NCBI RefSeq assembly: GCF_000007705.1
Contig: NC_005085.1
Coordinates: 310,001 to 374,000 of the forward strand
Direction: 5' to 3'
DNA: 64,000 nt
Origin: Chromobacterium violaceum ATCC 12472
GTDB taxonomy: Bacteria > Pseudomonadota > Gammaproteobacteria > Burkholderiales > Chromobacteriaceae
Within the stretch, counting starts at the first letter, position 1. Each line of letters starts with the position of its first letter. The translations under genes were made by a program, and so were the position numbers. Under the pieces are notes generated by a model. That model saw nothing but the letters and a program-made list of their open reading frames with translations, ran no database searches and had not been told where the DNA came from. This document shows, one piece after another, positions 47,124 through 62,826 of the stretch.

Positions 47124-47148
47124 AAACGGCAGCGTGGCGCTGCCGTTT
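47124..47148 (-). terminator. Terminator after fibre chaperone 1
   Basis: AAACGGCAGCG and CGCTGCCGTTT, 11-bp stem, TGG loop; on the minus strand the stem is followed by TT. It lies 22 bases past the stop of the gene at 47171 and just before promoter-like copy P2. Confidence 0.8.
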
Positions 47149-47170
47149 CCAGGTGTCGCGAGCTAGGTTT

Positions 47171-47749: not shown

Positions 47750-47759
47750 GGTGGAATCC

Positions 47760-49535
47760 TCAGTATTTGATGCAGGCGAGCAGGGCGATGTTGCGGGGGC
47801 GGGTGGAACCATAGCCGTTGGCCCAGCCGCCGGAGTCCAGATCGGGAAGATAAACCCCGTTGGCGGTGGAGACTGATAGTCCTAAGTCATATTTGTTTTT
47901 GTCGACGGGGTCTGCGCCTAAGTCCAGGTAGCCAATGACTGTGTTGTCGTTGCGGTGGACTAGGCTAGCTACGCACGGCGAAGTAAGAGACGGATCGGAG
48001 AATGTTAAGGTACCTTTTTGCCAGGTGCCAAAGCCGCGCCCGTTATCCACACCGCGACCGTCATCCCATCCGCGCACGAACTCGCCGCGCAGGTCCGGCA
48101 GGTTGAAGGTGGTGGAACCGTCGCCTGCGCCATAATAGGTTCCCAGCGCCGCGAACAAGGACGGATAGTCCTTGCGGCTCACCGCCGCGCCGTTGGCCTT
48201 CAGCCAGCCCAGCGGCGGAGCGGACATGGCGAAGAAGGCGACCTGGCCGGTCAGGTAGTCTTCGTGGATCAGCGTGCGCCAGGGGTTCCAGCGGCCAGTT
48301 GTTCCGTCGTCATTGCGCGTGCGAAAACGCATCATGCTGCCGTTGCCGTAATCCGCGGTTAATTGGCAGCTGTAGTTGATGTTGTTGTCCACCAAGCCGC
48401 CAAAGGCGATAAACGGGCCATAGATGCCGCTGGAAGTACCGTAGTTGAACCCCATTTCTCCTGCGGCGACCGACGTATCCAGCGAGGTCTTGTCATCGGC
48501 ATGGATGCGGCCCCGCCGCTTCTTGATGAACTGGCCATCATTGCCGCTGTGCCAGACGCGATATTCGCCGCCGGCGGCTTCCTTCAGCACCAGGGTATCG
48601 TCGCCATAACCCTTATGCACCAGCGCCACCGCGCTGTTGCCGGGACGGTGCAGGCCCAGGGCCGGGAAGTCGGTGCCGGTGGAGCGCAGTTCCAGCGTGC
48701 CGTTGGTGTAGAGATTGTTGTCGTAGACGTTAGGCGTGGTTTTGACGATCTGCGCGGTCTGGGCGGTGGACAGCGCCAGCGTGTTGATGCCGTAGCCGGC
48801 CAGCGAACTGGACTTGTCGGCCTTGCCGGCCAGCTTGTTGGTGATGGTGGCGGCGAAGTTGTTGTCGTTGTCCAGCGCCGCGGCCAGTTCCTGCAGCGTG
48901 TTCAGCGCGCCCGGCGCGCCGCTGACCAGCCCGTCCACCGCCGCCTTCAGCTCGGCCTTGGTGGCGCCGTCGGTGATGCCATAACCGGCCAGCGTGGTGG
49001 CGGCGTCGGCCAGCCTCTGCCATTGGCTCCAGTTATCGCGGTAGCGGCAGCGGTACCAGCAGCCGGCGTTGTCGTAGCACTGGTATTGCTGATAGACCAT
49101 CAGACCATCGGAGAAAACAAACAACAGGCCAGCATGCGGAGTTGGGTAGTTGGCGCCGTTGGCGGCGTAATCGTTGCCCGGATTGTGATAGAGACCGTCG
49201 TCGACGATATTGTTCAAGTCGATCTTGTCGCCCAGTTGCGGCCGCAGGGTCAGGCCGTCGGCGATGCCGTAGCCCGCCAGGGTAGTCGGCTTGGCATTAC
49301 CGCCCCAGGCCAGCTGCTTGATCGCCTGCAGCAGCTGATCCTGGCGCGCTGGATCGGCTTTCTGGCCATTGTTGCTGCCGATCACGGACAGCACTTCCTG
49401 CTGGGTGGCCTGGAGGGCGGACTGCACCGTGTTCAGCCAGTCGGCGGAGACGATGGTGCCCAGCTCGCCGGTGGAGGGATTGCCGTCGTGGAACTTCTGG
49501 TCCGGGGTGGGAACGGGCTTGATCGGGTCTTGCAT
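47760..49535 (-). CDS. Phage tail fibre protein with tail-collar domain (fibre 1)
   Basis: 591 residues from ATG 49535. Same N-terminal attachment end (KPVPTPDQKFHDGNPSTGELGTIVSADWLN) and TTLAGYGI shaft motifs as fibres 2 and 3. A unique middle (VYDNNLYTNGTLELRSTGTDFPALGL...) is followed by a C-terminal collar domain (GWLKANGAAVSRKDYPSLF ... GDGSTTFNLPDLRGEFVRGWDDGRG). It is directly after the gp48-like baseplate gene, where a phage fibre gene is expected, so it is probably the original fibre. Confidence 0.92.
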   Translation of the reverse strand: MQDPIKPVPTPDQKFHDGNPSTGELGTIVSADWLNTVQSALQATQQEVLSVIGSNNGQKADPARQDQLLQAIKQLAWGGNAKPTTLAGYGIADGLTLRPQLGDKIDLNNIVDDGLYHNPGNDYAANGANYPTPHAGLLFVFSDGLMVYQQYQCYDNAGCWYRCRYRDNWSQWQRLADAATTLAGYGITDGATKAELKAAVDGLVSGAPGALNTLQELAAALDNDNNFAATITNKLAGKADKSSSLAGYGINTLALSTAQTAQIVKTTPNVYDNNLYTNGTLELRSTGTDFPALGLHRPGNSAVALVHKGYGDDTLVLKEAAGGEYRVWHSGNDGQFIKKRRGRIHADDKTSLDTSVAAGEMGFNYGTSSGIYGPFIAFGGLVDNNINYSCQLTADYGNGSMMRFRTRNDDGTTGRWNPWRTLIHEDYLTGQVAFFAMSAPPLGWLKANGAAVSRKDYPSLFAALGTYYGAGDGSTTFNLPDLRGEFVRGWDDGRGVDNGRGFGTWQKGTLTFSDPSLTSPCVASLVHRNDNTVIGYLDLGADPVDKNKYDLGLSVSTANGVYLPDLDSGGWANGYGSTRPRNIALLACIKY

Positions 49536-49642
49536 GAAGCGCTCCTGGAAAAGGATGGGACAGGGACAGCCGATTGGGGATCGGCGCCGGGGGAAGGGAA
49601 AGGCGGGAGGAAACGCGCGGGAAGCGCGCGTTTGGAGACGGT

Positions 49643-50221
49643 TTACGGCTGGTAGGCGAAGTAGACGAAGGTATGGGCCGGCTTGAGGTCGTTGAACAGT
49701 TCTTCCAGCCTGGGGTCGCCGAAGGCGCACAGGCGTTCGCCCGCCAGCGATTGGCCGGCGCGGAACTGGTAGGGGCGGACCTTGCTGCCGAATACGGTCA
49801 CCTGCCATACCCAGGGGATGTCGGCGCTCCACAGCTGCTGGCCGGCGCGGTTGACGCCGGCGCGGAACGGCTGCGGCTCGGCGATCTGGATCTTGTAGCC
49901 CATGCCGGCGGCCAGGCGGGTGAAGTAGGGAATGGACAGGCCGCCGGTCTCGGCCAGCTTGGCCAGCACCGCCTGCCGGCGTTGCTGGTAGGTGGCGTCG
50001 GAGGGCGGCGTCAGACCGCATACCCGCTCCCATTCCGGCAGCATCGCCTCCGCCTGCAAGGGCGTGACGGCGCCGGCCAACTGATGGGCGGAATGCTGCG
50101 CGCGGTCCAGCGCCGCGCCCTCGCTGGCCAGCTCGGCCTGCAGCCGCGGGCTGTCCGGGCTGTAGCTGACCGGCGGCAGCAGCCGGGTCAGCAAGTCCTG
50201 ATAGGGCGGTTGCGGCGTCAT
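49643..50221 (-). CDS. Mu gp48-like baseplate/tail protein (YmfQ, DUF2313)
   Basis: 192 residues; ATG 50221 overlaps the stop of the gp47-like gene. Features of the YmfQ family: MLPEWERVCGLTPPSDATYQQRRQAVLAKLAETGGLSIPYF and ending GDPRLEELFNDLKPAHTFVYFAYQP. In Mu this protein sits at the baseplate rim and links fibres. Gene order supports the call. Confidence 0.9.
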   Translation of the reverse strand: MTPQPPYQDLLTRLLPPVSYSPDSPRLQAELASEGAALDRAQHSAHQLAGAVTPLQAEAMLPEWERVCGLTPPSDATYQQRRQAVLAKLAETGGLSIPYFTRLAAGMGYKIQIAEPQPFRAGVNRAGQQLWSADIPWVWQVTVFGSKVRPYQFRAGQSLAGERLCAFGDPRLEELFNDLKPAHTFVYFAYQP

Positions 50222-51306
50222 TTCAGCAGCCCCACAGTCAGTTTGCCCAGCCGCAGCCATTCCACTTTAGTGGGATCAGAGACTGGATCGACGTTGCCGG
50301 CCGGCGAGTTGAGCTGGCGGTCCTGCACGCCGGGCAGGTCGGAGATCAGCGCCTCGATCCGGCTCTTGACCAGCCGCTCGCCTGGCGCCAAGCCGGCGAA
50401 GTAGGCTTGCAGCGTCTGCTGCAGCAACGGCGTGAACGCGTCCAGGTTCGCGCCGCCCAGATTGAGCGCGACGTCGATGTCTACCGGGCGCGGGGTCGGC
50501 GCCAGCACCAGGCAGCTCTTGGCGGTGACCGGGCGCAAATCCTCGATATGGGCCTGTACATTGTTCAGAATTTCCTGCGACGGCAAGTCGCCGTTGGCGG
50601 TGATCACCACGTCCACGGTGCCCAGGCCGCGGCGCAGCGGATAGACGTAGGCGGCGGAGACGCCCTTCACTTCCATCGCCCAGCGGCGGTAGTCGTGCCT
50701 GTTGCCGCCGGCCGGCGGGCGGCGGATCAGCTCCAGCAGCCGGTCCAGCAAGGCCGCGTCGTCCTCCACGTCCACGCCGTTGCGCATGCTGAGCAGCAGC
50801 GCCTTGGCGCTGACGCCGGACGGAGCCTGCATCAGTTCCACCGGCAGGCTCTCCGGCTGATTGCCGGCGGCGCCGGCCTGGCTGGCGAAGATGGGCAGCT
50901 CGGCCTGGCCGTTGGCGTCCAGCCTGGCGGCGTAGGGGCTGCCGTCCGGATTGGCGGCGGGGGTGGCGTACAGCTGCTCGCCGATGCGCAGTTGCAGGCT
51001 GCCGCTGACGACGGCGCCGGCGTTGCCGCTGATCCGCAGCGTGCCGCTGGCGGCGGCGGCCGGCTTGCGCACGATGCCGCGCAGGCGGGCGTGCTGTTCC
51101 AGGTATTCGCTGTCGGCGGTGTCGGGGAAGATCTGGCGGGCGATCCAGCTCTGGTGCTGGTACAGGCCCTCCACCGCGCTGGCCACCGAGCTGGCGCGGA
51201 CGAAGTAGTCGCTGTCCGGCGCGATGTCGGCATCAGCGCGCAGGTTTTGCAGGTCGCGCAGCAGCGTATCGCGGATGCTGGCGAAATCGGGAGTGGACAG
51301 GGGCAT
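50218..51306 (-). CDS. Mu gp47-like baseplate J protein
   Basis: 362 residues from ATG 51306, overlapping the gp46 stop (ATGA). Baseplate_J pattern: DYFVRASSVASAVEGLYQHQSWIARQIFPDTADSEYLEQHARLRGI, then KGVSAAYVYPLRRGLGTVDVVI and a C-terminal RLVKSRIEALISDLPGVQD. It would be a wedge protein of the contractile baseplate. Confidence 0.93.
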   Translation of the reverse strand: MPLSTPDFASIRDTLLRDLQNLRADADIAPDSDYFVRASSVASAVEGLYQHQSWIARQIFPDTADSEYLEQHARLRGIVRKPAAAASGTLRISGNAGAVVSGSLQLRIGEQLYATPAANPDGSPYAARLDANGQAELPIFASQAGAAGNQPESLPVELMQAPSGVSAKALLLSMRNGVDVEDDAALLDRLLELIRRPPAGGNRHDYRRWAMEVKGVSAAYVYPLRRGLGTVDVVITANGDLPSQEILNNVQAHIEDLRPVTAKSCLVLAPTPRPVDIDVALNLGGANLDAFTPLLQQTLQAYFAGLAPGERLVKSRIEALISDLPGVQDRQLNSPAGNVDPVSDPTKVEWLRLGKLTVGLLK

Positions 51307-51656
51307 CAGGCTATCCTCACTTGGTGTTGGAAATGGCGGATGTGGCCGCCGGTTTCGGCGACTTCGATGTTCAGGAGCAGCCGGCCGGGGCCTTGCCGCT
51401 GCGACGACACCTGGACGCGGCTGGCGCGGCCGTCCTGCAGCAGCGGCTGCAGCGCCTGCTCGGCGTACTGGCAGGCCAAGAGGTCGATGCGGTTGCTGTC
51501 CTTGCTGCGGGACAGCTCGTGCAGGCGCGAGCCCAGCGTCGGGTCGGCCCACCAGCCGCCCAGCGGGGTCATCAGGCGCAGGTAGACGGCGTTGGCGAGG
51601 GTGTCGGTGGAGGGGCCGGCGTAGTCGCCGGTGATGGGGTCCAGCAATGGGTCCAT
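51306..51656 (-). CDS. Mu gp46-like baseplate wedge protein (gp25-type)
   Basis: 116 residues. DYAGPSTDTLANAVYLRLMTPLGGWWADPTLGSRLHEL matches the Mu gp46/GPW-gp25 family. It belongs to the core baseplate bundle with the gp47-like protein, with which its reading frame overlaps. Confidence 0.9.
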   Translation of the reverse strand: MDPLLDPITGDYAGPSTDTLANAVYLRLMTPLGGWWADPTLGSRLHELSRSKDSNRIDLLACQYAEQALQPLLQDGRASRVQVSSQRQGPGRLLLNIEVAETGGHIRHFQHQVRIA

Positions 51657-51715
51657 GGCGTTATTTTCCGGGTTTGGCGGTTATGGGATCAGGGGACGAG
51701 GGTCAGTGGCGCGGC

Positions 51716-52342
51716 TTACTTGGGCGGGCTGGTGACGCCGCCGGAGTCGCCGTTGTGGATGTGGCCTTGCAGGCTGATGCCGCCGGCCTTCACGTCGCCG
51801 CTGGCGCTGACGCTGCCGGTGACCTTGGCGCCGCCGCCGCCCTGGATGGCTAGGCCGCCGTTGCCGCTGATCTGGCCCTGGGCGACGAACTGCGCGCTGG
51901 TGTTCAGCGTGGGCGTGGTGAAGCTGGCTTGTTCGCTGGCGTTGACCTGCCAGGTCTTGCAGTCGAGCTGGAAGGTGTCGCACTCCACGGCGATGATCCT
52001 GCCGCGTTTGAGCACGATCTTGCTGCCTTCGTCGCTGTACAGCGCCACCTCGCCCGGTTGCAGCGATTGCAGCCGGTAGCTGCCGTGCTCGGTGGCGATC
52101 ACCACGCTGTGGCTGGTGCGGCCGCCCAGCGGCAGCACCATGGCCATGCTGCCCGGCGGGGGGTTGGAGGTGTAGCCGTAATGCTGGAACAGCTCGGCGT
52201 CCTGCAGCCGCTCGCCGGCCAGCGCGTCGGCCTGCGCGGCCTGCACGCCGCCGTCGCTGTCCACATGGGTGAGCACCGCGCGGAAGCCCTGGCGCACATT
52301 GCTGAAGGCGCGGCGGATGCGTTGGTCTACTTCATGCCACAT
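51716..52342 (-). CDS. Mu gp45-like baseplate assembly protein V (spike)
   Basis: 208 residues; GAGGAGACCAATATG start. An OB-fold region (VQAAQADALAGERLQDAELFQHYGYTSNPPPGSMAMVLPLGG) is followed by a beta-helix-like tail (QGQISGNGGLAIQGGGGAKVTGSVSASGDVKAGGISLQGHIHNGDSGG). The HxH near the end resembles the iron-binding spike tip of gpV/Mu gp45. This is the membrane-piercing central spike. Confidence 0.93.
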   Translation of the reverse strand: MWHEVDQRIRRAFSNVRQGFRAVLTHVDSDGGVQAAQADALAGERLQDAELFQHYGYTSNPPPGSMAMVLPLGGRTSHSVVIATEHGSYRLQSLQPGEVALYSDEGSKIVLKRGRIIAVECDTFQLDCKTWQVNASEQASFTTPTLNTSAQFVAQGQISGNGGLAIQGGGGAKVTGSVSASGDVKAGGISLQGHIHNGDSGGVTSPPK

Positions 52343-52352
52343 ATTGGTCTCC

Positions 52353-53399
52353 TCATTGCTTGCCGGCGCGCATCACCGGAATCCAGCATTTGTCTTCCTT
52401 CAGCGTCAGCCGGGTGACGCTGCCCTGGCCGCGGCCGCCCTCGAAGGTGCGCGCCATCAGGAAATAGGTGCCGTTGATGCCGTGCGGCTCGCTTTCCACC
52501 TCGATGCGCTGGCCCGGCGTCCACAGCGCGCCCTGGCTGTCGCGGTGGCCGGCCACGGTGGCGGTCAGGGTGTAGCCGGCCAGGCGGGCGTCGGCCAGCA
52601 TCTTGTCGGCGCGGGCGGCCAGCTCGGCCGGGCTGGCGGCGTCCGGCTCCACCTGGATGCGCGGCTTGTGGTAGCAGACGTCGGAATCGAAGACGTGGTG
52701 CCGCATCGCGTGGCGGCCGGGCGTCAGCGACTGGCCGTGGCCCTGGCCCAGCAGCGTCAGCTCGGAATAGCGCTGCGCGTGGGAGCGGGTTTCGGCCAGG
52801 CTGAGCACATTGTTGCCCTTGCCGTCGCGGCGCAGGATCAGCCGCGCGCTGGCCGGCCGGCTGTAGTCCGGACCGCCCACCAACAGCGTGCCGTCCGGGT
52901 CGAACCAGGCGGTCAGGCCGTTGGCCTGGGCGGCGCGGGTGAGCACGTCCCAGGCGCTGTTGCCGGGATCGACATTGATCTTCTCGATCTGGCCGCGGGC
53001 CTTGGCGTCGACGCGGATGTTGGCGATGCCCAGCGGCTTCACCACGTTGTCCAGCACGTCCTGCAGCGTCATGCCCTTGCCGGTGAACAGCGGCGCGCTG
53101 CAATCGAGCAGCATGCCGGCCAGGTCGCGGCCGGACAGCGTCAGCTGATGGCTGCCGGAGGCGACGCTGTGGCTGATGTCGTCGATGCGGCCCATCAGCA
53201 CCGTCTCGCCGCCGACCTGCACCTTGACCATCGCGCCCGGCTCCACGTCGGGCGGGAAGACGCCGCCTGGCAGGCCCAGCGACACCTGCCAGGCGTCGGC
53301 GGCGACGACCAGGTCGGAGTCGACCGAGTAGTGGGTCCAGTCGCCGTGCTGGCGGCCGCCTATCTGCAGGCTGACGGTTTGCTTAGCGGGCGTAGCCAT
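52353..53399 (-). CDS. Mu gpP (gp44)-like baseplate hub protein
   Basis: 348 residues. Late-control-D/gpP type: MGRIDDISHSVASGSHQLTLSGRDLAGMLLDCSAPLF, NSAWDVLTRAAQANGLTAWFDPDGTLLVG, GQRIEVESEPHGINGTYFLMARTFEGGRGQG. Its start lies inside the end of the upstream gene (17-bp overlap), showing co-translation. It links tube and spike. Confidence 0.93.
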   Translation of the reverse strand: MATPAKQTVSLQIGGRQHGDWTHYSVDSDLVVAADAWQVSLGLPGGVFPPDVEPGAMVKVQVGGETVLMGRIDDISHSVASGSHQLTLSGRDLAGMLLDCSAPLFTGKGMTLQDVLDNVVKPLGIANIRVDAKARGQIEKINVDPGNSAWDVLTRAAQANGLTAWFDPDGTLLVGGPDYSRPASARLILRRDGKGNNVLSLAETRSHAQRYSELTLLGQGHGQSLTPGRHAMRHHVFDSDVCYHKPRIQVEPDAASPAELAARADKMLADARLAGYTLTATVAGHRDSQGALWTPGQRIEVESEPHGINGTYFLMARTFEGGRGQGSVTRLTLKEDKCWIPVMRAGKQ

Positions 53400-54687
53400 A
53401 GACCAGGGTCCCCGGAGTCAGATGGTTGGGTTGGGACAGCTGCGGATTCAGCCGCAGCAGCTCGGCGGCGCGCTCGCTGTCGCCATACCACAGGTGGGCC
53501 AGCTGGCGCAGATTGCAGGCGGATTCCACCTTGCGCTTCAGCAGCGGCGGCTTGGCGGCGATCAGCGCGGCGGCGCCCTGCTGCACCTGCAGGCCCAGCT
53601 CGCGCAGGCCGTCCACCACCTTGTAGGCGTCCTCGGACGGCATGCCGGCGCGCCATTGGTCTATCGTGGTCTGCAGCGAGGCGCGCACGTCACCGGCGAT
53701 CTGCTCCAGCGCCGGCGGCGTCAGCGTCGGCTTTTGCGCTTCGCTGGCGAAGATGCCGGCGGCGGCGGAGGCGAGCTTGGTGGACACGTTCAGCTGCAGC
53801 AACGCGTCGATGCGGCGCTGGTCGTCGCTCCATACCGACAGCGTGGCGCTGGCGGATACCGGCGAGATGCCCTGGCGCACCGCATCCGGCAGGCCCTCCA
53901 GCCGGCGGCGCAGCGCCTTCCAGTCGGCCAGCGTGGCGGACGACATCGCGGCGGCGGTTTTCAGCGCCGGCAGCGGGCCGAGGTCCACCTGCAGATCGAA
54001 GCGCCAGTTGGCCGCCGCGTCCACCAGCTGCTTGGCCTGGGCGACGAAGGCCTGCGGATAGGCGAGCAGGTCGGTCACCTGGGCCACCGCCTGGTTGGCC
54101 ATCGCGGCCAACTGGCGGACGGTGGCGGTCAGTTGCTGGCGCAGCGCGGCGACGCGGGCCAGCGCGCCCTTGGCGGTGGCCACCAGGCCCTGGGCCTTGG
54201 CAAAGGCCTCGCCGGCCATCTGGCGCAGCTTGTCCACCTGCGACGAGATGGCGTCCACCTGCGGCAGCGTCTTCTTGGCGGCGAAGAAAGGGTTGCCCGG
54301 CGTGGCCTCCACCCAGTTGACCTCCACGGTGCAGGAGTCGGTGGCGTCGGCGTCGTGGCTGATCTGGTAATCCACTACCTGGGCCTGCGGCATGCTGCCG
54401 AACACCGGGTGGACCAGCTCGCCGGGGCCGGCGGCGTCCAGCGCGGCGACGAACTGGCGCAACCGGTGCTGGTAGTCCTTGCCCCAGAACATCGCCGACA
54501 GCGACACCTTGCGCGCCTTGCGGCCCAGGTCCTCCACGTCGGCCCCGTCCTTGTACGGGTATTCGTGCATCGCCTGGTCGCGCTGCGCGCTGTCCACGCT
54601 CTTCAGGCAGTCGAAGCGCACGCCGCGGAAGCTGGCGTCCACCAGGGGGCCGGCGGACAGGCCGGCGAACACATTGAGGCTGAACAT
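53383..54687 (-). CDS. Mu gpN (gp43)-like tail/DNA circularisation protein
   Basis: 434 residues from ATG 54687, which overlaps the upstream stop (TGATG); a TTG at 54690 is not needed. The N-terminal domain [40 protein letters not shown] matches the phage DNA-circularisation N family. Next comes a long helical middle, and a LysM-like C-terminus ([26 protein letters not shown]). Structurally a distal tail/baseplate protein. Confidence 0.92.
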
Positions 54688-56687
54688 CAATTCCTCCTTT
54701 GTTGTTGGCTGTTGGCGGCGTTGACGGCGGCGACGATGTTGCCGTTTTGCACGTCGACGGTGATTTGGATGGGTTTGGCCAGCGGGGCCAGTGCGGCATT
54801 CAACTGGCCGAGCAGAGCGGCAAGCTGGGCTAGTTGGGCATCCAGATTGCCGGGACCCGCTGGCTGGGCGGGCTTGGCTTGAGCGGGCTGCTTTTGGGCC
54901 GGCTTCGCCGCGGCTTTTTGTTTCGGTTGAACGGGTTCTTTCTTTCCAACAGCTTCGATCTTGGTCTGTGCTTGCTCAGCTTCTTTCCGCTTCACAGCTT
55001 CCGCGTCGACGCCTTGTTTGGCTTTCGCCTGCTCTGCCGCTTTCTGTTTCGCAGCTTCGACGTCGGCGCGCTGCTTGGCTTTCGCCTGCTCTGCCGCTTT
55101 CTGCTTCGCGGCTTCGGCGTCGGCGCGTTGCTTGGCTTTCGCCTGTTCGGCCGCTTTCTGTTTCGCAGCTTCGGCGTCGGCGCGCTGTTTGGCTTTCGCC
55201 TGTTCGGCCGCTTTCTGTTTCGCAGCTTCGGCGTCGGCGCGTTGCTTGGCTTTCGCCTGTTCGGCCGCTTTCTGTTTCGCAGCTTCGGCATCGGCGTGTT
55301 GTTTGACCTTCGCCTGATCTTTTGCTTCCTGCCTTACTGCATCAACATCTGCTTGTGGCTTCTTTTGATCTACTTCATGTTTTATATCGGCGGCATGTTC
55401 ATTTTTTCCTTCAGTGTTAGGTTGGCTGACAGAGGAGAGTTCTTTTTCTATCGCACCTTGTCTTTTCTTATAATTCTCTCTCCAATATTTAAGATATTCT
55501 TTGGTTAAGTCACGGTCATTTAATGCCGCATATTTCTTTTTATCCTTGCTGGGTAAATTTCCTATTAGATTGGATTTGGTTTTCTCTCCAAGTGATTGGA
55601 GGCCAGCATTGACCTTTTGAATGATGGAATAGCCACCGGCCCCTTGTTGATGTGCAAGGTAAAGATCTAGTCCATTTGGGTTTTGCTCTCCTGATAGATA
55701 TTCTAGATTGTTCTTTTGTTTCTTTTTTTCTATTGCTTTTAAATTGTCTTTATATAGTTGAAGTGCGGCTTTTGTATTTTCTGTGGGATCAAACTCTTTC
55801 CCGTTGATTTTATATGCTTTTGCAGTGTCTGGTACAAATTGAAATAAGCCTTTCGCACCCGATTTTTTGTTGTAGGCTTTTTCATTGTAAGTTCCGCCAG
55901 TTTCTATATCGGCGAATGTTAGAAAGTCTTTTACAGGTACATTTGATTCTATTGCTTGTTTTTTAATTATTTCCTTATTCTTTCTTATTCTTTCAATGCG
56001 CTCATTCTCTTTTTCATTCTTCTTATGCTCATTCCCTTTTGGGGGTGTGTTTTTCGACTCATGCTTATTGCCTAAAGGTGTAGAGCTACTCTCAGGAAGT
56101 TTTGGTTTAGCCTGATCTTCTTTTTTTTCATTTTTCTGGTGCTGTCCAATATTATTTGGCCTGCTGAGCGAGATATTGCCAGACACAATGTCTGAGATAT
56201 ATTTCTTGTATGTTTCTTCATCCGTTTCGACATGAGAGTGAATAGGGTATTTGTGTTTTCCTGCCGAATCGCCAGTTTTGTATTGCAATCCTAGCCCTTG
56301 TCCATATTCGACACGATCCCCATTTTTGAATGTTTGAGTTTCTGGTTTTATGTGTTGCAGTTTTGCCAGTAAAGTACGATCTTTCCCTTCTGGCTTGTCA
56401 TATATTTCTATCGTCCCGTAGTTTTTAGAGTATGTGGCATACCCTGAAACAGGCGATGGTGTATATACATCCCTGTTCCCTTTTTCATCACTTAAGATGA
56501 AATCCTTTTTTATATTGACTCTATTTTTTTGATTGGCGACTTCTTCTAAATTTCCATGTATTCTTTCATATTGGCGGTTTCCCTCTTTTTCTTTGTCTGG
56601 ATGATGCTTTGGCATTGAGTCATAATCGGTTACTGGTATATTGCCTTTTGCTTTGCCTGCATACTGCATGATCTTATACTTTGACAT
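54687..56687 (-). CDS. Chimeric tape-measure-position protein with M23-like and lytic transglycosylase (SLT) domains
   Basis: 666 residues. Residues ~70-165 resemble an M23 LytM fold (LLAKLQHIKP, GDRVEYGQGLGLQYKTGDSAG, KYPIHSHVE), though the first zinc His is not obvious. Residues ~245-385 look like an SLT/lysozyme-like domain (DFLTFADIETGGTYNEKAYN with the likely catalytic Glu, SGAKGLFQFVPDTAKAY, LDLYLAHQQGAGG). Then come six 19-residue Ala/Lys/Gln repeats, and a C-terminal tail like Mu-type tape measures (ITVDVQNGNIVAAVNAANSQ). The first ~440 codons are strongly A+T-rich; the repeat and tail are G+C-rich. Its place between tube and gpN is where the tape measure belongs. Confidence 0.8.
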   Translation of the reverse strand: MSKYKIMQYAGKAKGNIPVTDYDSMPKHHPDKEKEGNRQYERIHGNLEEVANQKNRVNIKKDFILSDEKGNRDVYTPSPVSGYATYSKNYGTIEIYDKPEGKDRTLLAKLQHIKPETQTFKNGDRVEYGQGLGLQYKTGDSAGKHKYPIHSHVETDEETYKKYISDIVSGNISLSRPNNIGQHQKNEKKEDQAKPKLPESSSTPLGNKHESKNTPPKGNEHKKNEKENERIERIRKNKEIIKKQAIESNVPVKDFLTFADIETGGTYNEKAYNKKSGAKGLFQFVPDTAKAYKINGKEFDPTENTKAALQLYKDNLKAIEKKKQKNNLEYLSGEQNPNGLDLYLAHQQGAGGYSIIQKVNAGLQSLGEKTKSNLIGNLPSKDKKKYAALNDRDLTKEYLKYWRENYKKRQGAIEKELSSVSQPNTEGKNEHAADIKHEVDQKKPQADVDAVRQEAKDQAKVKQHADAEAAKQKAAEQAKAKQRADAEAAKQKAAEQAKAKQRADAEAAKQKAAEQAKAKQRADAEAAKQKAAEQAKAKQRADVEAAKQKAAEQAKAKQGVDAEAVKRKEAEQAQTKIEAVGKKEPVQPKQKAAAKPAQKQPAQAKPAQPAGPGNLDAQLAQLAALLGQLNAALAPLAKPIQITVDVQNGNIVAAVNAANSQQQRRN
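54972..55313 (-). repeat. 57-bp tandem repeat (six copies) encoding a coiled coil
   Basis: Six in-frame units of 57 bp, each coding 19 residues of the form AKAKQRADAEAAKQKAAEQ. The middle units are nearly identical in DNA and the end units diverged, as in a slippage-expanded array. Its length could set tail length. Confidence 0.88.
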
Positions 56688-56868
56688 TTCAGTTTCCTAA
56701 CCAAGTTCTCATCCAGTGAGATGACAATGCTTCCTTGTTTTTGGGATTGAATTATTTAAAATTCAATTGCCATGTATTTAACGGATGCAATGTTTGAGTA
56801 AGAAAGCCGAGCCATAAATGACTTGGCTTCCTTTTTCAATCTGGTTTTTTCTCCAGATAATTAGGGGC

Positions 56869-57243
56869 TTATTCCACGACCTTCCGCAGCGACATCAGCT
56901 TGATATCGCGGCGCGCTTCGCTTTCCACGCCGTATTTCTCGCCGACTTCCAACGTGAAGCAGTCCAGGTAGCTGGTGCGCTTGCCGCCCGGCGCCAGCGG
57001 GAATTCGGTCAGTTTGGCGCCTTCGATCGCTTCCCAGTCCAGGTCGCCGGTCAGCGGGATGGACACGGTGACGGACAGGTCGTACTCGGTGATGCCGCGG
57101 GCGAAGCCCTTGGCGCGGCCGGTGGCGTTCATCGTCTTCACCACCTTGCGGCCAGTCTTGCTGCTGACGTTGAGGTCGATGACGTCGATTTCCTGGCCGT
57201 TCACTTCCAGGACGATGGAGCCTGCGTATTCTTTCAAAGCCAT
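56869..57243 (-). CDS. Mu gpM (gp40)-like tail tube protein
   Basis: 124 residues, AAAGGA before ATG. Matches the tail-tube family: GSIVLEVNGQEIDVIDLNVSSKTGRKVVKTMNATGRAKGFARGITEYDLSVTVSIPLTGDLDWEAIEGAKLT. Forms the inner tube; lies directly after the sheath gene, as in Mu. Confidence 0.94.
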   Translation of the reverse strand: MALKEYAGSIVLEVNGQEIDVIDLNVSSKTGRKVVKTMNATGRAKGFARGITEYDLSVTVSIPLTGDLDWEAIEGAKLTEFPLAPGGKRTSYLDCFTLEVGEKYGVESEARRDIKLMSLRKVVE

Positions 57244-57367
57244 GAGACTTTCCTTTTCGATTCGGGATGGGGCGGCCGGGCGGCGGCCCGGCCGGCTGGG
57301 GTGTTGAAGGAAGGGGGAGAGGCGAGGCGGCCGAGCGCTGCGGGATCAGCCGCCTCGCCGCGCGCGC

Positions 57368-58792
57368 TTACAGCAGCAGGTCGATGCGGCCGGCGAACAC
57401 GTGCAGGCCGTTGACCACGTCCACCGGGATCTTGGCGTCCAGGCGGTTGACGTCCTGCAGGTCGCGCTCGACGATCAGGCCGGCCTTGTTGGCTTCGACT
57501 TGTTCGATGATTTCCAGCTCTTCCAGCTTGTACAGCACGTCCAGCAGCTCGGAGCGCACCTTGGACGGGGTGCGGTCGGACAGCTTCTCGCGCGGGAAGC
57601 GCAGCGCGATGCGCTCGCGGCAGGCCTTGCGGACGTAGTCCAGCGTGCGGATGGTGGTGATGTCCAGCAGCGACACGTCGTCCACGCCCTGCGCGTCCTT
57701 GGTGTAGGTGCTGATGGCGCGCACGATCTGCACACGGTCGCCGGCGCCCACTTCCAGCGGAGTCACGCCGTTGTACAGCGCGTTTTCCTGCTCGGTGCGG
57801 CTGGTGCGGGAAGCCAGGTCCACCACGTCCAGGCCTTTCAGCTCCAGGGTGTTCAGCGGACGGGCCGGGTCTTCCTCGCTGGCGATCACGGCGGCGTAGG
57901 CGGCGGCGATGTCGGCCGGCAGCTTGGCGGAGCCGCGGTACCAGGCGGCGGTGATGCGGCCGCTGTCCAGCTTGGCGGACAAGGCGGAGGCGTCGGCCAG
58001 CGCGCCGGTGGTGGCGATCACGCCGATGGCGCCGCGCTGTTCCAGCGGGCCGGACACGAAGTCCAGGTGGTTGCGCAGCGCGGTCAGCGCGGCGTCGCCG
58101 GTGAAGGGACTGGCGATGATCTGGTGGCCGCCGCTGACCACGGTGCCCAGAACCGGGACCAGGTCCGGCTCGCCGGCACCGCCTTTCATGGCGGCGACCA
58201 CGACGCCGAGGCCGGCGATCTGTTCCTGCGCCTTCAGCGCGATGCTGTTGCCGATGCTGCCCTTGTGGCGGGCGGCGAGGGTCAGCACTTCCTTGGCTGC
58301 GGTCGCGGTCACCGGCAGGTCGCTCAGCTTGGCGATGGCGGCCTGGGCGTTGGCGGCGATCTTGGCGGCGTCGTCGCCGGCGGCGACGGCCACGTCGACG
58401 CGCGCCGCGCCGATGAACAGGCTCAGCACGCCGGCGGCGGCGGCCGGACCGCTGAAGGTGAAGGAGCCGGAGGCGGCGGTGCCGGCGGCGGCATCGTCGA
58501 CGCCGATCACGGTCAGCTGCAGATAGGGGTTGGCGTTGATGGCGGCGCGCGCCATCAGGTGGGCGTTGGAGCCGCGGCCGAAGGCCTGGGCAGCTTGCTC
58601 GTCGCTGAACACGTCCAGCGCCGCCAGCGCCGGCTGGGCGGCGGTGTCGGCCAGGCGTTGGCCGATCACCAGCACGCGCTGCGGATTGCCCGGCAGCGTG
58701 CGTACCGCCAGTTTGGTGTTGAACTCGAAGTATTTGCCCGGCTTGCGGATGGAGGCCGGAATCTGGTCGAAGCTGATGTTGGCGCTAGCCAT
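57368..58792 (-). CDS. Mu gpL (gp39)-like contractile tail sheath protein
   Basis: 474 residues; starts SFDQIPASIRKPGKYFEFNTKLAVRTLPGNPQRVLVIGQRL and ends PVDVVNGLHVFAGRIDLLL, both features of Mu-type sheath subunits. It proves the tail is contractile. The small gp38-type gene usually just upstream in Mu is not seen in the 69-bp gap. Confidence 0.95.
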   Translation of the reverse strand: MASANISFDQIPASIRKPGKYFEFNTKLAVRTLPGNPQRVLVIGQRLADTAAQPALAALDVFSDEQAAQAFGRGSNAHLMARAAINANPYLQLTVIGVDDAAAGTAASGSFTFSGPAAAAGVLSLFIGAARVDVAVAAGDDAAKIAANAQAAIAKLSDLPVTATAAKEVLTLAARHKGSIGNSIALKAQEQIAGLGVVVAAMKGGAGEPDLVPVLGTVVSGGHQIIASPFTGDAALTALRNHLDFVSGPLEQRGAIGVIATTGALADASALSAKLDSGRITAAWYRGSAKLPADIAAAYAAVIASEEDPARPLNTLELKGLDVVDLASRTSRTEQENALYNGVTPLEVGAGDRVQIVRAISTYTKDAQGVDDVSLLDITTIRTLDYVRKACRERIALRFPREKLSDRTPSKVRSELLDVLYKLEELEIIEQVEANKAGLIVERDLQDVNRLDAKIPVDVVNGLHVFAGRIDLLL

Positions 58793-58861
58793 AAGGAAAG
58801 GCTCCTGGTGTGGCGGTTGGGGAAGGTGCCGCGCCGGTTGGCGCGGCGAGGGGAAAGCGGG

Positions 58862-59560
58862 TTATTTCTGGCTGGGGGCGGGATTGGCGACCACGTCCTG
58901 CGCCTTGACGCCGACGGAGCCGGCCAGGCTGTAGTTGAGCTGGGTGCTCTGCCAGGTCTTGGCCGGGTCTTCCAGCCGGCCGCCGAAGGCGCGGAACAGC
59001 GCGTCCGGGTCGGCGTCGGTTTGCGGCGACGGCCAGTGGCCGTTGTCCAGCGCCTCGTCCAGCCAGTAGGTGCTGAAATCGCAGGCCACCAGGCTCCAGG
59101 GCTGGCCGTCGCGCGGGGCCTGGCCCAGCGGGCGGACTTTTTCCGGCAGCAGCGGATTCACCGCCAGGCCGAAATCCTGCGAGGCCAGCAGGCGGCGCGC
59201 GGCGTAGACCAGTTGCCAGACGCCGGCGCCGGCGTAGTTGGCGTCGGCCTGCAGCCGGTCGCCGACGATGACGGTGAACAGCGCGTTGGCCTTGTAACGC
59301 AGGCGCTGGCTGGTCTGCGGCTGGCTGGAGGTGATGCCGCCGGCGACGGTCCACAGCGCCGGCAGCCTGGCCAGCGCCTGCGGGTTGATGGTGGGGCTGG
59401 ACTGGCCGGGGGTGAGCCGGCTGGCGTAATCGCCGTGGGCCAGCTGCAGGCCGCACAGGGCGGTTTCGTCCAGGTCCGCCGCCACTTCGCGCACCATCCG
59501 GCCCATGCCTTGGCGCAGGCGGTCGGCGATGGCGGTTTGCACGGAAATCAGCATGGACAT
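58862..59560 (-). CDS. Mu gp37-like protein (DUF1834)
   Basis: 232 residues from ATG 59560, six bases after AAGGA (ATG 59566 would have no spacing). LISVQTAIADRLRQGMGRMVREVAADLD and the RYKANALFTVIVGDRLQADANYAGAG region fit the DUF1834/Mu gp37 family, a tail-completion protein at the tube's proximal end. It is the first gene after promoter-like motif P1. Upstream there are no head genes. Confidence 0.85.
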   Translation of the reverse strand: MSMLISVQTAIADRLRQGMGRMVREVAADLDETALCGLQLAHGDYASRLTPGQSSPTINPQALARLPALWTVAGGITSSQPQTSQRLRYKANALFTVIVGDRLQADANYAGAGVWQLVYAARRLLASQDFGLAVNPLLPEKVRPLGQAPRDGQPWSLVACDFSTYWLDEALDNGHWPSPQTDADPDALFRAFGGRLEDPAKTWQSTQLNYSLAGSVGVKAQDVVANPAPSQK

Positions 59561-59594
59561 GGTCATTCCTTGGAACGATGGAGAGGATGGGGGG

Positions 59595-59638
59595 ATTGTG
59601 ACGCCGGGCGGCGCCGGGGCTTAGCTGAGGGGTGTCAG
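59595..59638 (-). promoter_or_regulatory. Putative tailocin late promoter, copy P1 (before tail operon)
   Basis: Minus strand CTGACACCCCTCAG ... CACAAT with 32 bases between CTGACA and CACAAT; gp37-like ATG 34 bases beyond CACAAT. CTGA-N6-TCAG is a perfect dyad. The motif overlaps the stop codon of the 71-residue gene at 59635. Confidence 0.65.
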
Positions 59639-59850
59639 TGCACCAGGCGCTTGAGCAGTTCGCCGGCCAGGGTGACCAGCAGCGCGGACAGGGCGCCGGA
59701 CACCGCGCCGCTCTTGGCGGCCTGGATCTCGACGTCGCGCAGGCGGCCGTCCAGCTCTTCCAGTTTTTTGTCCTGTTTGGCGAGGTGGGCGACGATCATG
59801 TCAAGCTTGCCTTCTATGCGGCCCAAGGCCAGCAGGTTGTCGTGTTCCAC
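59635..59850 (-). CDS. Small phage-associated coiled-coil/membrane protein
   Basis: 71 residues from GTG 59850 (GAGGGTTTCAC upstream). An amphipathic/coiled-coil part (IEGKLDMIVAHLAKQDKKLEELDGRLRDVEIQ) is followed by one C-terminal membrane helix (SGAVSGALSALLVTLAGELL). The layout recalls XhlA-type lysis accessory proteins; the function is not certain. It lies 9 bases after the zinc-finger gene. Confidence 0.7.
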   Translation of the reverse strand: MEHDNLLALGRIEGKLDMIVAHLAKQDKKLEELDGRLRDVEIQAAKSGAVSGALSALLVTLAGELLKRLVH

Positions 59851-59859
59851 GTGAAACCC

Positions 59860-60057
59860 TCACTTTTCCGCCAGTTGCTGGCACAGCACGCAGCGGGTGC
59901 AGCTGGGGATGGCCGCGCGGCGGGCGTCGGGAATCGCGTCGCCGCAGTCCTCGCAGTGGCTGAGTCCGTTTTGGCGCCATTGCTCGAAGTGGCGGGCAAG
60001 CGCCTGCTCGCGGAATTCGGTTTCCAGCTCGCTGGCCCGGTCGAAAAAGTCGGTCAT
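59860..60057 (-). CDS. TraR/DksA C4-type zinc finger protein
   Basis: 65 residues from ATG 60057, which overlaps the Rz-like stop by 4 bases. The four-Cys finger is complete: CEDC-GDAIPDARRAAIPSCTRCVLCQ. Short TraR-like proteins bind RNA polymerase's secondary channel and mimic DksA with ppGpp; Mu-like phages often carry one. It could tune host or late transcription. Confidence 0.88.
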   Translation of the reverse strand: MTDFFDRASELETEFREQALARHFEQWRQNGLSHCEDCGDAIPDARRAAIPSCTRCVLCQQLAEK

Positions 60058-60617
60058 GGTGTGGGTTCCTGTTGAGAGTAGAGTTGTTTCAGGGCGACAA
60101 GGCGTTGCTCCAGTTGCTGGCACCAGGCGCCGTAGTCGGCGGCGTGGGCGAGGAGATCGGGCGCCGGTAGCCCGGCGTCGGCGCCGGGGGTTTGGGCGGC
60201 AGCTCCAGCAGATAGGGGCTGGGCGCCGGGCAGCTCGTCGGCATAGCCGAGGAGCTGGCGGTAGAGGCGCAGGCTGTCAGGGCCAAGGCCAGTAAAGCGG
60301 GGACCATCGTTGCGGGTGACATCGTCTATCCTTTGCGCGTTTCGCCGCTGCTGCGCTTGCAGCGCCTGCTGTTGCTCCAGCAGCCGGCTTTCCAGTTGAT
60401 CGATGCGTTGGCGCCATTGCCGCTGCAGCTCCATGGCCGCGGCCTGGCGCTGTTGCTGCGCGCGGCTGTCGGCGGATTGCATCTCGGCGACGGTGGCCTG
60501 CAGCCTGGTTTGCCAGTACTGGCGGCTCTGGCCGCTGCCCAGCGCGTAGCCGCCGGCGGCGGCGAGCAGCGGCAGTAGCAGGCCGGCGCCCAGGCGCAGC
60601 AGCGCCGGGGGAATCAT
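60054..60617 (-). CDS. Rz-like inner-membrane spanin (i-spanin)
   Basis: 187 residues from ATG 60617. An N-terminal membrane anchor (LLRLGAGLLLPLLAAAGGYALG) is followed by a long periplasmic coiled coil rich in Gln (RAQQQRQAAAMELQRQWRQRIDQLESRLLEQQQALQAQQ). With the nested Rz1 frame it would disrupt the outer membrane during lysis. Confidence 0.82.
   Translation of the reverse strand: MIPPALLRLGAGLLLPLLAAAGGYALGSGQSRQYWQTRLQATVAEMQSADSRAQQQRQAAAMELQRQWRQRIDQLESRLLEQQQALQAQQRRNAQRIDDVTRNDGPRFTGLGPDSLRLYRQLLGYADELPGAQPLSAGAAAQTPGADAGLPAPDLLAHAADYGAWCQQLEQRLVALKQLYSQQEPTP
60089..60322 (-). CDS. Rz1-like outer-membrane lipoprotein spanin nested in Rz
   Basis: 77 residues in a different frame wholly inside the Rz-like gene. 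It has a short signal with lipobox LTAC (VPALLALALTAC) and a Pro-rich mature part (CPAPSPYLLELPPKPPAPTPG), the classic o-spanin. Nested Rz1 is a known phage arrangement. Start ATG 60322, or ATG 60307. Confidence 0.82.
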   Translation of the reverse strand: MSPATMVPALLALALTACASTASSSAMPTSCPAPSPYLLELPPKPPAPTPGYRRPISSPTPPTTAPGASNWSNALSP

Positions 60618-60835: not shown

Positions 60836-60837
60836 GC

Positions 60838-61242
60838 TCATTTCTCCAGTGACAGTTGGAAATGGGGAATCTCGTGCAGCGGCGCTTCCAGCGTGCCGTG
60901 CCAGTACAGTCCCAGCGATTGGGCGACGCGCCCCATCACCTGCCAGTGAGGGTGGTCGATGTCGCAGATGGGCTTGCCGGCCAACAACGGCACCACGTCG
61001 AAGGCGCGGGCGGCGGGGTTGCCGTGCAGCGTCGCGTTGTGCGCGGATTCGCCGGGGCGGGCGTAGGTGACGATGGCGCCGGGCAGATCGCGGCCCCGGC
61101 GGTACAGCTGCGCCTGTTCTTCGGACGAACGCCAGGTGCAGATCAGCAGCGGGTCCACGCCCTGGTCGCGGCACAGGCGCAGAAAGGTTTCCGCCAGCGG
61201 TTGCAGTTGAGGATGCAGATCGGAAATGGCTCGGCTTGCCAT
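60838..61242 (-). CDS. M15-family peptidase endolysin
   Basis: 134 residues. Peptidase M15 (L-Ala-D-Glu / D-Ala-D-Ala type) pattern: DPLLICTWRSSEEQAQLYRRGRD, GESAHNATLHGNPAARAFDVVPL (His and Asp zinc ligands), HWQVMGRVAQSLGLYWHG and HEIPHFQLS (third His). It should cut peptidoglycan cross-peptides to release particles. It heads the lysis gene group. Confidence 0.87.
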   Translation of the reverse strand: MASRAISDLHPQLQPLAETFLRLCRDQGVDPLLICTWRSSEEQAQLYRRGRDLPGAIVTYARPGESAHNATLHGNPAARAFDVVPLLAGKPICDIDHPHWQVMGRVAQSLGLYWHGTLEAPLHEIPHFQLSLEK

Positions 61243-61322
61243 GGGGTCTCCTTTGCCTGATGGAATGCGTGGCGCGGTCTGGGAGGCGAGTCGGGGCCCA
61301 CGGCGGCGACGGGCTTGCCGGA

Positions 61323-61742
61323 TCAGTGAATTTCCTGATCGGCTGGCGGGGTTTTCAGCACGCGCCAGACCATGCGGTCGCTGAGCCGGTAGCGCATCGC
61401 CAGCACGCCGACCGCTTCGTTGGCGCCCAGGCCTTCCACCAGCATCGCGTCGAAGTCGCGGATCATCTGCTGGTTGCGCGCCTGGCGCAGCGCGGTGCTG
61501 CAGCGCGGGATATAGAGGATGTCGCCGCCGAAATGATGGGTCAGCCGCTCGGCCGCCTCCTGGCCGATCACCTCTACCAGCGCGGCGAAACGCAGCTGGC
61601 CGGCGCGGCTCTGGTTCTTGGAGAAGGGCAGGGTGGTGCCGCCCAGCGCCTGCACCAATTGCAAAGTTCGCGGCATGCCAATCAGCTGAGCGACCAGTTG
61701 CATGGTGGAGGGCAGAGCGGGATATTGCGCGGCTGTAGTCAT
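61323..61742 (-). CDS. Mor/C-family transcription activator
   Basis: 139 residues from ATG 61742 (GGAG eight bases upstream). Mor-family layout: a dimerisation half (LRFAALVEVIGQEAAERLTHHFGGDILYIPRC) and a C-terminal helix-turn-helix (FDAMLVEGLGANEAVGVLAMRYRLSDRMVWRVLK). In Mu, Mor and C activate middle and late promoters by binding a dyad upstream of a -10 without -35. Its likely targets are the P1-P3 motifs. It is first in the minus-strand cluster, facing the repressor gene. Confidence 0.87.
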   Translation of the reverse strand: MTTAAQYPALPSTMQLVAQLIGMPRTLQLVQALGGTTLPFSKNQSRAGQLRFAALVEVIGQEAAERLTHHFGGDILYIPRCSTALRQARNQQMIRDFDAMLVEGLGANEAVGVLAMRYRLSDRMVWRVLKTPPADQEIH

Positions 61743-62079
61743 CACGTGAGCTCCTGAAAGTCCCAAAGGGCCTTGGCAGACAAATAGTTCTAAATGAGTT
61801 ATAGTTTGAGTGAGGTCAAACGAAGGGCGACAGGTTCTTTATGTAAGCAGTTTTTAGAACTGCTGTGGTAGTTATGTGTTTATATTTTAGCACTTTGATA
61901 AGTAGCATTGCTAATTAGTAGAACTACTTATGAAGTATGATTGCTATTGTATGCGCTGTTTTTGAACTGAACAAGCAACGAGATGTCACTACTCATGTCA
62001 GTTACATTCGACAAAATGACAATGTAGTGGTACTCTGGGGCGCTGCTCCAGCCGTGCATGACTTCCGATGGAGTTCCAA
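61743..62079. promoter_or_regulatory. A+T-rich control region between Mor-like activator and S24 repressor
   Basis: 337 bp with several short dyads that look like operators: AGCAGTT-TTTAG-AACTGCT (61846-61864), AGTAG-AA-CTACT (61917-61928), and GTTCTAAA (61787-61794) matched in inverse by TTTAGAAC (61853-61860). Divergent promoters for the activator and repressor must lie here. No gene is seen. Confidence 0.6.
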
Positions 62080-62826
62080 ATGGAAAATTCGCAGCAACAC
62101 ACCGATTTCCGGCAGCGTCTGGAACTATTGATCGGCAGCGAGAAGCCCTACGCCTGGGCGGCGCGCAACGGCCTCAACAAGGGTTCGTTCACCAATATGT
62201 GGTACAAGGGCGGCGTGCCGCGGATCGGCACCGCGCAGAAGATCGCGGCCAACAGCGGATGCCGGGTCGAGTGGCTGCTGTACGGCGAGGGGCCGATGCA
62301 GGACGAGTGCGCGCAGGCGCACGATGCCCCGATGCCGGCGGGATTGCCCGCTTTGTCACCGCTGGCAGACGCCGACGAGCACGAGGTGCCGGCCGGAGTG
62401 CAAGAGGAGTTCTGTTTTATCCCGCGTTATAACCTGAAGGCGTCAGCCGGCTTTGGAACCAGCGCGGCCGGCGAGCAGCCGATGTTCTACATGGCCTTCC
62501 GCCGCTACTGGGTGAAGAACTATCTGAACGCCTCGCCGCGCAACCTGGTGGTCATCAGCGTCAAGGGCGACAGCATGAGCGGCGTGCTGGAGGACAGGGA
62601 CACCATCCTGGTCAACACCGCCGAGCGCCATCCCGGCGAAGGCTTGTTCGTGATCCGCATCGGCGACGATATCTTCGTCAAGCAGCTGCAGCGGCTGCCT
62701 GGCGGCGCGGTGCAGGTGAAAAGCGCCAACCCGCTGTACGAGACCTTCACCGTCGATCTGTCGCGCGCATCCGGCGAGTTCGAGGTCATCGGGCGCGTGG
62801 TGTGGTTCGGCCGGCAGATCGCCTGA
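62080..62826 (+). CDS. S24-family (CI/LexA-like) phage repressor
   Basis: 248 residues from ATG 62080 (GGAG seven bases upstream; ATG 62068 possible). An N-terminal helix-turn-helix (RLELLIGSEKPYAWAARNGLNKGSFTNMWYKGG) is joined to a C-terminal S24 peptidase. The self-cleavage site is probably Ala-Gly in LKASAGFG; catalytic Ser lies in VKGDSMSGVL and Lys in DIFVKQLQRL. RecA-triggered self-cleavage on DNA damage would derepress the activator and the tail genes. Confidence 0.93.
   Translation: MENSQQHTDFRQRLELLIGSEKPYAWAARNGLNKGSFTNMWYKGGVPRIGTAQKIAANSGCRVEWLLYGEGPMQDECAQAHDAPMPAGLPALSPLADADEHEVPAGVQEEFCFIPRYNLKASAGFGTSAAGEQPMFYMAFRRYWVKNYLNASPRNLVVISVKGDSMSGVLEDRDTILVNTAERHPGEGLFVIRIGDDIFVKQLQRLPGGAVQVKSANPLYETFTVDLSRASGEFEVIGRVVWFGRQIA

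Follow-up and report, generated by a model that had tools for sequence, protein, structure and literature searches.

The window analysed here is a 64,000-nucleotide stretch of Chromobacterium violaceum ATCC 12472 (positions 310001-374000 of its 4,751,080-bp single-contig genome; all positions below are window coordinates). At 43384-62826 it carries a Mu-like tail island, and the gene considered in this report, hereafter the target, occupies the tape-measure position of that island, between the genes for the tail tube and the baseplate hub protein gpN. A complete tail module (sheath, tube and baseplate genes) was identified in the island, in keeping with a headless Mu-like tailocin, and no head genes were seen in 43384-62826 from open reading frame (ORF) lists and gene order, with part of the ORFs scanned. 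The tube-gpN interval holds the target only. As the original prediction made from the sequence had claimed, there is no ordinary tape measure: neither a gp41-like chaperone nor a second tape-measure gene was found between tube and gpN. The features of this part of the island are as follows.

56869..57243, minus strand: tail tube (phrog_185, 9.6e-29)
54687..56687, minus strand: target, a chimeric 666-aa protein in the tape-measure position (ATG start; one match in its own genome)
54759..56868, minus strand: exchanged cassette (no blastn match to loci L064 or L067 here; 93-97% identity on the flanks)
56160..56606, minus strand: M23-like domain, residues 28-176 (PF01551 below cut-off; PDB 8kea; a protein recorded under phage fSU1)
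55713..55955, minus strand: predicted SLT lytic transglycosylase core, residues 245-325 (Glu 262; GLFQF at 280; AHQQGAGG at 345, past the core)
54983..55316, minus strand: 19-residue (57-bp) repeat (TRF, 5.9 copies, 90% matches)
54690..54758, minus strand: constant C-tail, residues 644-666, common to Mu-type tape measures (classic-tail hidden Markov model and DNA alignment)
54693..54698, minus strand: AGGAGG in the last codons of the target, probable Shine-Dalgarno sequence of gpN (motif position)
53383..54687, minus strand: gpN/DNA_circ_N baseplate hub protein (PF07157, 6.3e-34)

Comparison with related islands shows that the target is the exchanged part of a conserved locus. A sheath search across 61 genomes of the family covered 19 of the genus, and 18 of these have the sheath at no less than 77% identity. 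Islands were fetched from the other 17 (L064-L080) and from one genome of another genus (L081), giving 18, along with 20 more distant loci. In L064, L066 and L067 the sheath, tube, gpN and gpP are 93-98% identical to those of the window, yet none of the three has a relative of target residues 1-420; a blastp relative of this part (E up to 1e-3, first 400 residues of each slot protein) is present in just two of the 18 islands, L065 and L081. Further relatives of the M23-like part occur in L062, L063, L148 and L166. At the DNA level, the window matches L064 at 96.2% up to the last tube base (56869), shows no match until 54758 and matches again at 96.9% beyond, giving sharp alignment boundaries at the tube stop codon and codon 643. 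Against L067 the boundaries are equal within 2 bases, at 93.3%, and against L149 the match resumes at 54879. The exchanged cassette thus comprises nearly the whole gene, and what is kept is the C-tail. The gene gmhA adjoins the repressor gene in 12 of the 18 fetched islands and was not found within the fetched stretch in the other six, and the island thus appears to be a locus of long standing whose cassette is exchanged. Unbroken chimeras range from 543 to 769 aa, so a constant-length ruler is not obvious.

If the C-tail derives from a tape measure, it is expected to be recognised by a model of genuine tape-measure ends. A hidden Markov model (HMM) was built from 12 classic Mu-type tape-measure ends, and it matches the target at 2.3e-8; the proposed G+C-rich tail resembling the end of a Mu tape measure is indeed present. 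Of 23 slot proteins (22 different, L059 being identical to L066), 21 match this HMM, and L060 and L080 are missed. One of 664 decoys matched, with a score identical to the target's, and was taken as the target itself among the window ORFs. An unselected check comes from the 18 islands, whose retrieval relied on the sheath and was independent of the tail: 17 match, the exception being L080 with its divergent tail. The target stop and the gpN ATG overlap, and the last codons ahead of the gpN start contain AGGAGG in the window and in 12 of the 18 other fetched islands, AGGAGA in five, and neither in L080. AGGAGG, which encodes the final RR, is likely the gpN ribosome-binding site. The original prediction of a domain swap that kept a functional C-terminus is upheld for the swap, with no alignment from the tube stop to codon 643 and agreement of the last 23 codons with L064 and L067, but part of the tail conservation likely reflects this translation signal. 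The signal does not account for the conserved VDVQNGNIVAAVN stretch of the C-tail. Separately, at a second Mu-like locus in Chromobacterium sphagni (L084/L137) the tape-measure C-tail lies in a 98-aa ORF in another frame than the 783-aa main part, either an assembly error or a real split.

As had been suggested, the first part of the target is low in GC: its first 11 blocks of 120 nt (1,320 nt) have a GC content of 0.32-0.42 and those after them 0.53-0.68, against a window mean of 0.656. The whole chain matches no Pfam family at E up to 1 and no NCBIfam family at E up to 0.1, and PADLOC returns nothing for it. The two enzymatic domains originally proposed were assessed with HMM searches of fragments, and they fared differently. 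For the SLT domain, residues 225-430 match PF01464 at 1.4e-7 (31.5 bits, cut-off 21.3). PDB sequence matches of this part are weak but consistent (9b45, a chain named tape measure protein, 1e-4; endolysin gp144, 9xps, 0.0025, and 3bkh, 0.0026), and several PHROGs transglycosylase or tail-lysin families match the target at 1e-7 or better. E262 aligns to Glu 115 of gp144 (9xps), which we take to be catalytic. The SLT domain is thus supported by a score over the cut-off and by the motif I Glu in place, and lytic transglycosylase activity is predicted. The M23 assignment is weak and rests on profiles. Residues 50-180 match PF01551 at 0.0083 (16.7 bits, cut-off 28.7), and only over model positions 26-82 of 96, a match that excludes the first metal ligands and the HxH. 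A 6-row profile picks up the PDB hub protein 8kea at 0.0023, while hhalign against three canonical M23 rows gives E 0.043 with a probability of 1.2%. Residues D62, H112, H150 and H152 are invariant in six aligned rows and, by eye, in line with canonical residues; an invariant HHP at 28-30 might stand in for the first zinc histidine. The 19-residue repeat was found as proposed (57 bp, 5.9 copies) and is a probable coiled coil. The nearest PHROGs family, phrog_3513 (1.2e-43), has its best stretch at residues 475-665, that is, the repeat and the C-tail.

The cassettes of other islands encode a range of predicted enzymes. NlpC/P60 is above the Pfam cut-off in L064, L066, L068, L074 and L079, with GH19 also above it in L068 and L074; M23 is above it in L078 (4e-27), SLT in L081, glucosaminidase (9.2e-24) plus NlpC/P60 in L060, GH19 plus NlpC/P60 in L157, and T6SS_VgrG3-like_C in L166 (2.3e-68). 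L077 carries Lipase_3 and Mbeg1 above cut-off, and L161 a lipase of the same kind. Less direct assignments are NlpC/P60 in L080 (below cut-off, 21.4 versus 23), L069 and L070 (by similarity to scanned proteins), GH19 in L115 (54% identity to L068) and the second module of L065, which has PHROG family matches only, one of them labelled endolysin. Across the 18 islands of the genus, window included, 11 slot proteins are hydrolase-like (seven above a Pfam cut-off, with the target counted by its fragment), one is a lipase, three are unknown and three are tape-measure remnants. The proteins of L071, L075, L076 and L159 consist of mosaic modules, L159 having stretches in common with L071 and L075, and are candidate new effector domains; L071 also has a glycine zipper below cut-off. 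L080 is the only one of the 18 islands with an extra ORF between slot gene and gpN (L080:9305-10624, minus strand; 440 aa, 38% GC, without confident family match), possibly an accessory effector or immunity gene.

Some of these modules recur outside tail islands. The M23-like domain of the target is 34% identical over 163 columns to a 784-aa protein in a 10,956-bp record named Xanthomonas phage fSU1 (L187, PQ067315.1), which combines an M23-like domain, VgrG3-like_C, two peptidoglycan-binding stretches and X-Tfes_XVIPCD. The last is a mark of Xanthomonas type IV antibacterial effectors. L166 unites the target-type M23-like domain, VgrG3-like_C and the tape-measure C-tail. Judging by family names, the same modules are found in type VI secretion system (T6SS) and type IV secretion system weapons and in this tailocin.

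A Mu-type tape measure (phrog_794) is expected to lie between tube and gpN, to end in the C-terminal tail and to be homologous over its full length. The target has the position and the tail; a full-length HMM (eight classic proteins, phrog_794 type) does not match it, and its matches to other chimeras, if any, are confined to their C-terminal part. The three remnants L067, L072 and L073 score 47-52 bits in their N-terminal third, and L067 matches phrog_794 at 4.9e-20. An idea that tube and cargo co-evolve was dropped, as remnant-type islands have equally close tubes (94-98%). Presence of a gp41-like chaperone was assessed with a classic chaperone HMM run on 104 tube-gpN intervals, 39 of which match and 65 of which do not. 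There is no match in the window and none in any of 34 non-identical chimeras, whereas 3/3 remnants and 34 of 41 classic-type loci match, nine of the latter being seeds of the HMM. The 34 are non-identical sequences and not independent lineages, as some are near-copies (L155/L071, 98%) and L144, L148 and L149 are broken; L152, cut by a contig end, was excluded. Since seven classic-type loci (five distinct: L091/L140, L093, L117, L121, L142/L183) are also unmatched, the HMM is not exhaustive. The chaperones of L067 and L082 belong to phrog_508; a phrog_508 search of the target's own genome gave no match, but neither did its control, so that it is uninformative. A hydrophobic membrane segment is likewise missing, with a maximum 19-residue hydropathy in the target of 1.41, at residue 619 in the tail. 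Maxima are 1.06-1.58 for chimeras, 2.09-2.23 for remnants and 1.28-2.36 for classic tape measures (three short fragments excluded).

The modules show purifying selection. Of 14 module pairs, 10 allowed dS to be computed, and their ratio of nonsynonymous to synonymous substitution rates (dN/dS) ranges from 0.07 to 0.28; the other four, which involve the target, are saturated at synonymous sites, with pN 0.19-0.24 against pS 0.74-0.88. With regard to distribution, C-tail searches, which by design select for the tail, returned 19 loci in species genomes and 43 in viral contigs, a mix of chimeras and classic tape measures. A test for wider spread in the class was negative, with the C-tail profile matching one of 369 genomes, the window's own. 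The tube protein matches 12 of 399 genomes of the order, eight of them outside the family and yielding nine islands. One of these holds a chimera (L115, with a divergent tail) and eight hold tape-measure-like proteins, five of which match the classic HMM above 500 bits and three of which (L117, L120, L121) do not.

The remainder of the island comprises further tail genes, together with regulatory and lysis genes.

58862..59566, minus strand: Mu gp37-like protein (PF08873, 7e-47; phrog_490, 6e-31)
57368..58792, minus strand: tail sheath (phrog_165, 1.5e-177)
52353..53399, minus strand: gpP-like baseplate hub (phrog_177, 6.2e-127)
51716..52342, minus strand: gp45-like protein, presumably the spike (PF06890, 3.5e-28)
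51306..51656, minus strand: gp46 baseplate wedge (PF07409, 6.4e-20)
50218..51333, minus strand: gp47, Baseplate_J (PF04865, 4.2e-68)
49643..50260, minus strand: gp48 baseplate wedge (PF10076, 1.1e-40)
59860..60123, minus strand: DksA-like zinc-finger protein (phrog_54, 1.7e-21)
60838..61242, minus strand: the island's own endolysin (phrog_465, 5.1e-24)
61323..61766, minus strand: Mor-like late activator (phrog_836, 2.6e-39)
62068..62826, plus strand: CI-like repressor (phrog_4, 4.4e-41)

The Pfam family of the gp37-like gene is Mu gp37, yet PHROGs labels phrog_490 'portal protein'. Downstream, in the region 43384-49620, three tandem tail-fibre-like genes (43384-44691, 45470-46987 and about 47760-49530) with fibre-assembly-like genes in between were recognised by eye, which suggests a variable host range of the tailocin. 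Elsewhere in the genome there are three further tape-measure-family matches (L188, L189 and L190, at about 0.43, 1.57 and 2.31 Mb).

Published observations indicate that such particles are made. Tail-like particles of the species were seen in the 1970s (as cited in PMC5871888). The exoproteome of C. violaceum ATCC 12472 includes CV_0350 (phage sheath), CV_0349 and CV_0340 (tail fibre assembly) (PMC3661913), and CV_0350 is up 4.4-fold with H2O2 (PMC4913304). Counting genes from the sheath, CV_0349 would be the tube, CV_0348 the target and CV_0340 the fibre-assembly gene. A cluster of C. subtsugae strongly induced by quorum sensing (gene order peptidase, Gp37, sheath, tube; PMC12114271) may be this island, and was set aside because a 'capsid cement protein' is listed in it; a Burkholderia tailocin (PMC5411513), a P2-type system, was not used either.

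These observations are best explained by exchangeable, C-tail-anchored enzymes carried in the tube and delivered to the periplasm, a reading to which we assign a probability of roughly 0.65. The target would be the lumen protein of a Mu-type contractile tailocin. Its C-tail, the end of a Mu-type tape measure, would anchor the chain at the baseplate near gpN, gpP and gp45, and the rest of the tape measure would have been replaced by exchangeable enzymes, here a predicted peptidoglycan-hydrolase pair (M23-like and SLT) followed by the repeat. The chain would be packed in the tube; on sheath contraction the tube would cross the outer membrane of the target cell, the chain would be released, and the hydrolases would cut peptidoglycan in the periplasm. 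Other strains have other enzymes in the slot, and the locus would thus work as a cargo cassette. The layout of the island, the exchange of cassettes beside a fixed C-tail, the missing chaperone and the purifying selection on modules are shown by the sequences, and lumen packing, tail anchoring, delivery and killing are inferred from them. Anchoring of the C-tail is proposed by analogy with diffocin, in which the tape measure occupies the lumen and rests with its C-terminal end on the spike (PMC11329794). By volume, packing is possible: 666 residues at about 0.133 nm3 occupy about 89 nm3, and 3-6 copies 270-530 nm3. We take the lumen to be 4 by 100 nm, or about 1,250 nm3. Of the two options originally considered, carriage in the tube with release on contraction is the one we favour, though the target may still be a fixed ruler.

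Several points weigh against this interpretation. The slot need not hold a hydrolase, as L067, L072 and L073 contain tape-measure remnants, and family scans recognised no enzyme in the slot proteins of L071, L075, L076 and L159. In the M23-like domain of the target the first zinc histidine is out of its usual place. The L080 tail is divergent enough to be missed by the HMM and that of L115 differs more, and C-tail conservation can be explained in part without a role of the protein, because the final RR codons double as the gpN ribosome-binding site. Loss of the hydrophobic segment is weak evidence, since the classes overlap and a transmembrane region is small or missing in the tape measures of T4 and T5 as well (PMC11329794). 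CV_0348, the number assigned to the target by gene count, is absent from the exoproteome text (PMC3661913). Finally, by an estimate from values that we assume, a lumen roughly 4 nm wide would leave little room for folded domains measuring about 3.6 nm.

R-type pyocins kill by membrane depolarisation, and the hydrolases could serve only as a drill that helps the tube through peptidoglycan, with killing by depolarisation here as well. In line with this, the SLT part finds its best PDB match in a chain named tape measure protein, and there is the case of phage TM4, in which a tape-measure hydrolase motif aids infection of stationary cells and is dispensable for viability (PMC1796659). However, Gram-negative cells have a thin wall, a glycan cutter and a peptidase, both above Pfam cut-offs, occur together in at least four slot proteins (L068, L074, L060, L157), one slot kind carries a lipase (L077, L161), and polymorphism between close strains looks like weapon diversification, all of which makes a pure drill rather unlikely. 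It is highly improbable that the target is instead a second endolysin, lodged in the tail operon and releasing particles from the producer. The nearest family, phrog_3513, is labelled 'endolysin', but this label was rejected as a guide to function: L060 matches the family over residues 1-695, so that phrog_3513 evidently holds slot proteins and its label is no independent evidence. Moreover, the island has its own endolysin (phrog_465), and such a role is at odds with the slot position, with the tape-measure C-tail and with the existence of lipase and VgrG3-type variants.

The target might also lie outside the tube, with tail length and lumen filling provided from elsewhere, for example by the tape measure of another prophage. 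The genome does hold three other tape-measure-family matches, but they are 68 kb to 1.9 Mb distant and the target itself ends in a Mu-type tape-measure tail, and we regard this arrangement as improbable. Least credible of all is a decaying or neutral mosaic, in which the slot would be a functionless recombination scar. Three viral-contig islands do have broken slot genes (L061/L144 in two pieces, L149 in three and L148 apparently in two), and for L149 tblastn also gives split matches to gp37, gp45, gp46 and gp47, which suggests sequencing error there. Against decay stand long open frames (543-762 aa) in all 18 fetched islands and the low dN/dS of 10 of the 14 pairs, the other four being saturated.

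The proposed tube cargo shares features with several known systems. Tme (PMC11126660) and Sle1 (PMC13277306), of actinobacterial contractile injection systems, are likewise tape-measure-derived cargo with functional domains in a phage-tail machine, and Sle1-type domains vary between species (PMC13277306). The slot proteins have this trait of a tape-measure part with variable functional domains. They differ in that the functional domain of Tme and Sle1 is C-terminal, with DUF4157 on the effector or a partner, whereas here the enzymes are N-terminal and the C-tail constant, in a Mu-type tailocin; the whole target chain gave no Pfam match, DUF4157 included, in scans that covered part of the neighbouring genes. 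Enzymes joined to a tape measure are also described for TM4 (muralytic motifs, PMC1796659) and P23-45 (a fused RNA polymerase, N-terminal as here; PMC10770324). Those are DNA-delivering long-tailed phages, while in the present island nearly the whole tape measure is replaced and no head genes are seen. Diffocin is likewise a contractile bacteriocin with lytic transglycosylase and NlpC/P60 domains and a C-terminally anchored lumen protein, but its hydrolases are on the hub and its tape measure has transmembrane helices; the same source describes systems aimed at Gram-negatives as lacking hydrolases (PMC11329794). T6SS VgrG3-type and Xanthomonas X-Tfe effectors have family matches in common with slot proteins (VgrG3-like_C in L166, M23-like in the fSU1 protein), but use other delivery machines, and in the present case it is the tape-measure C-tail that would signal delivery. 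No description of an enzyme-swapped tape-measure slot was found in titles and abstract openings of the papers listed by searches on tailocins, tape-measure fusions, contractile injection systems and Chromobacterium prophages. Tape-measure-fused enzymes are already known, and the exchangeable slot with a constant C-tail appears to be a new form of them.

Gram-negative tailocins are generally taken to kill by puncture. For the genus as a whole, we put at even odds the broader proposal that a tape-measure gene has turned into an interchangeable effector cassette, whose short C-tail universally tags hydrolases, lipases and unknown toxins for loading and delivery, and that killing is by injected enzymes and not only by puncture of the membrane. 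The natural slot variants make the question of ruler or cargo directly testable. If the proposal is true, it would show how small a tape measure can become, with about 23-70 C-terminal residues left, which would suggest a compact anchoring signal, and genus-wide exchangeable enzyme cargo would connect tailocins with T6SS and other effector-delivery weapons.

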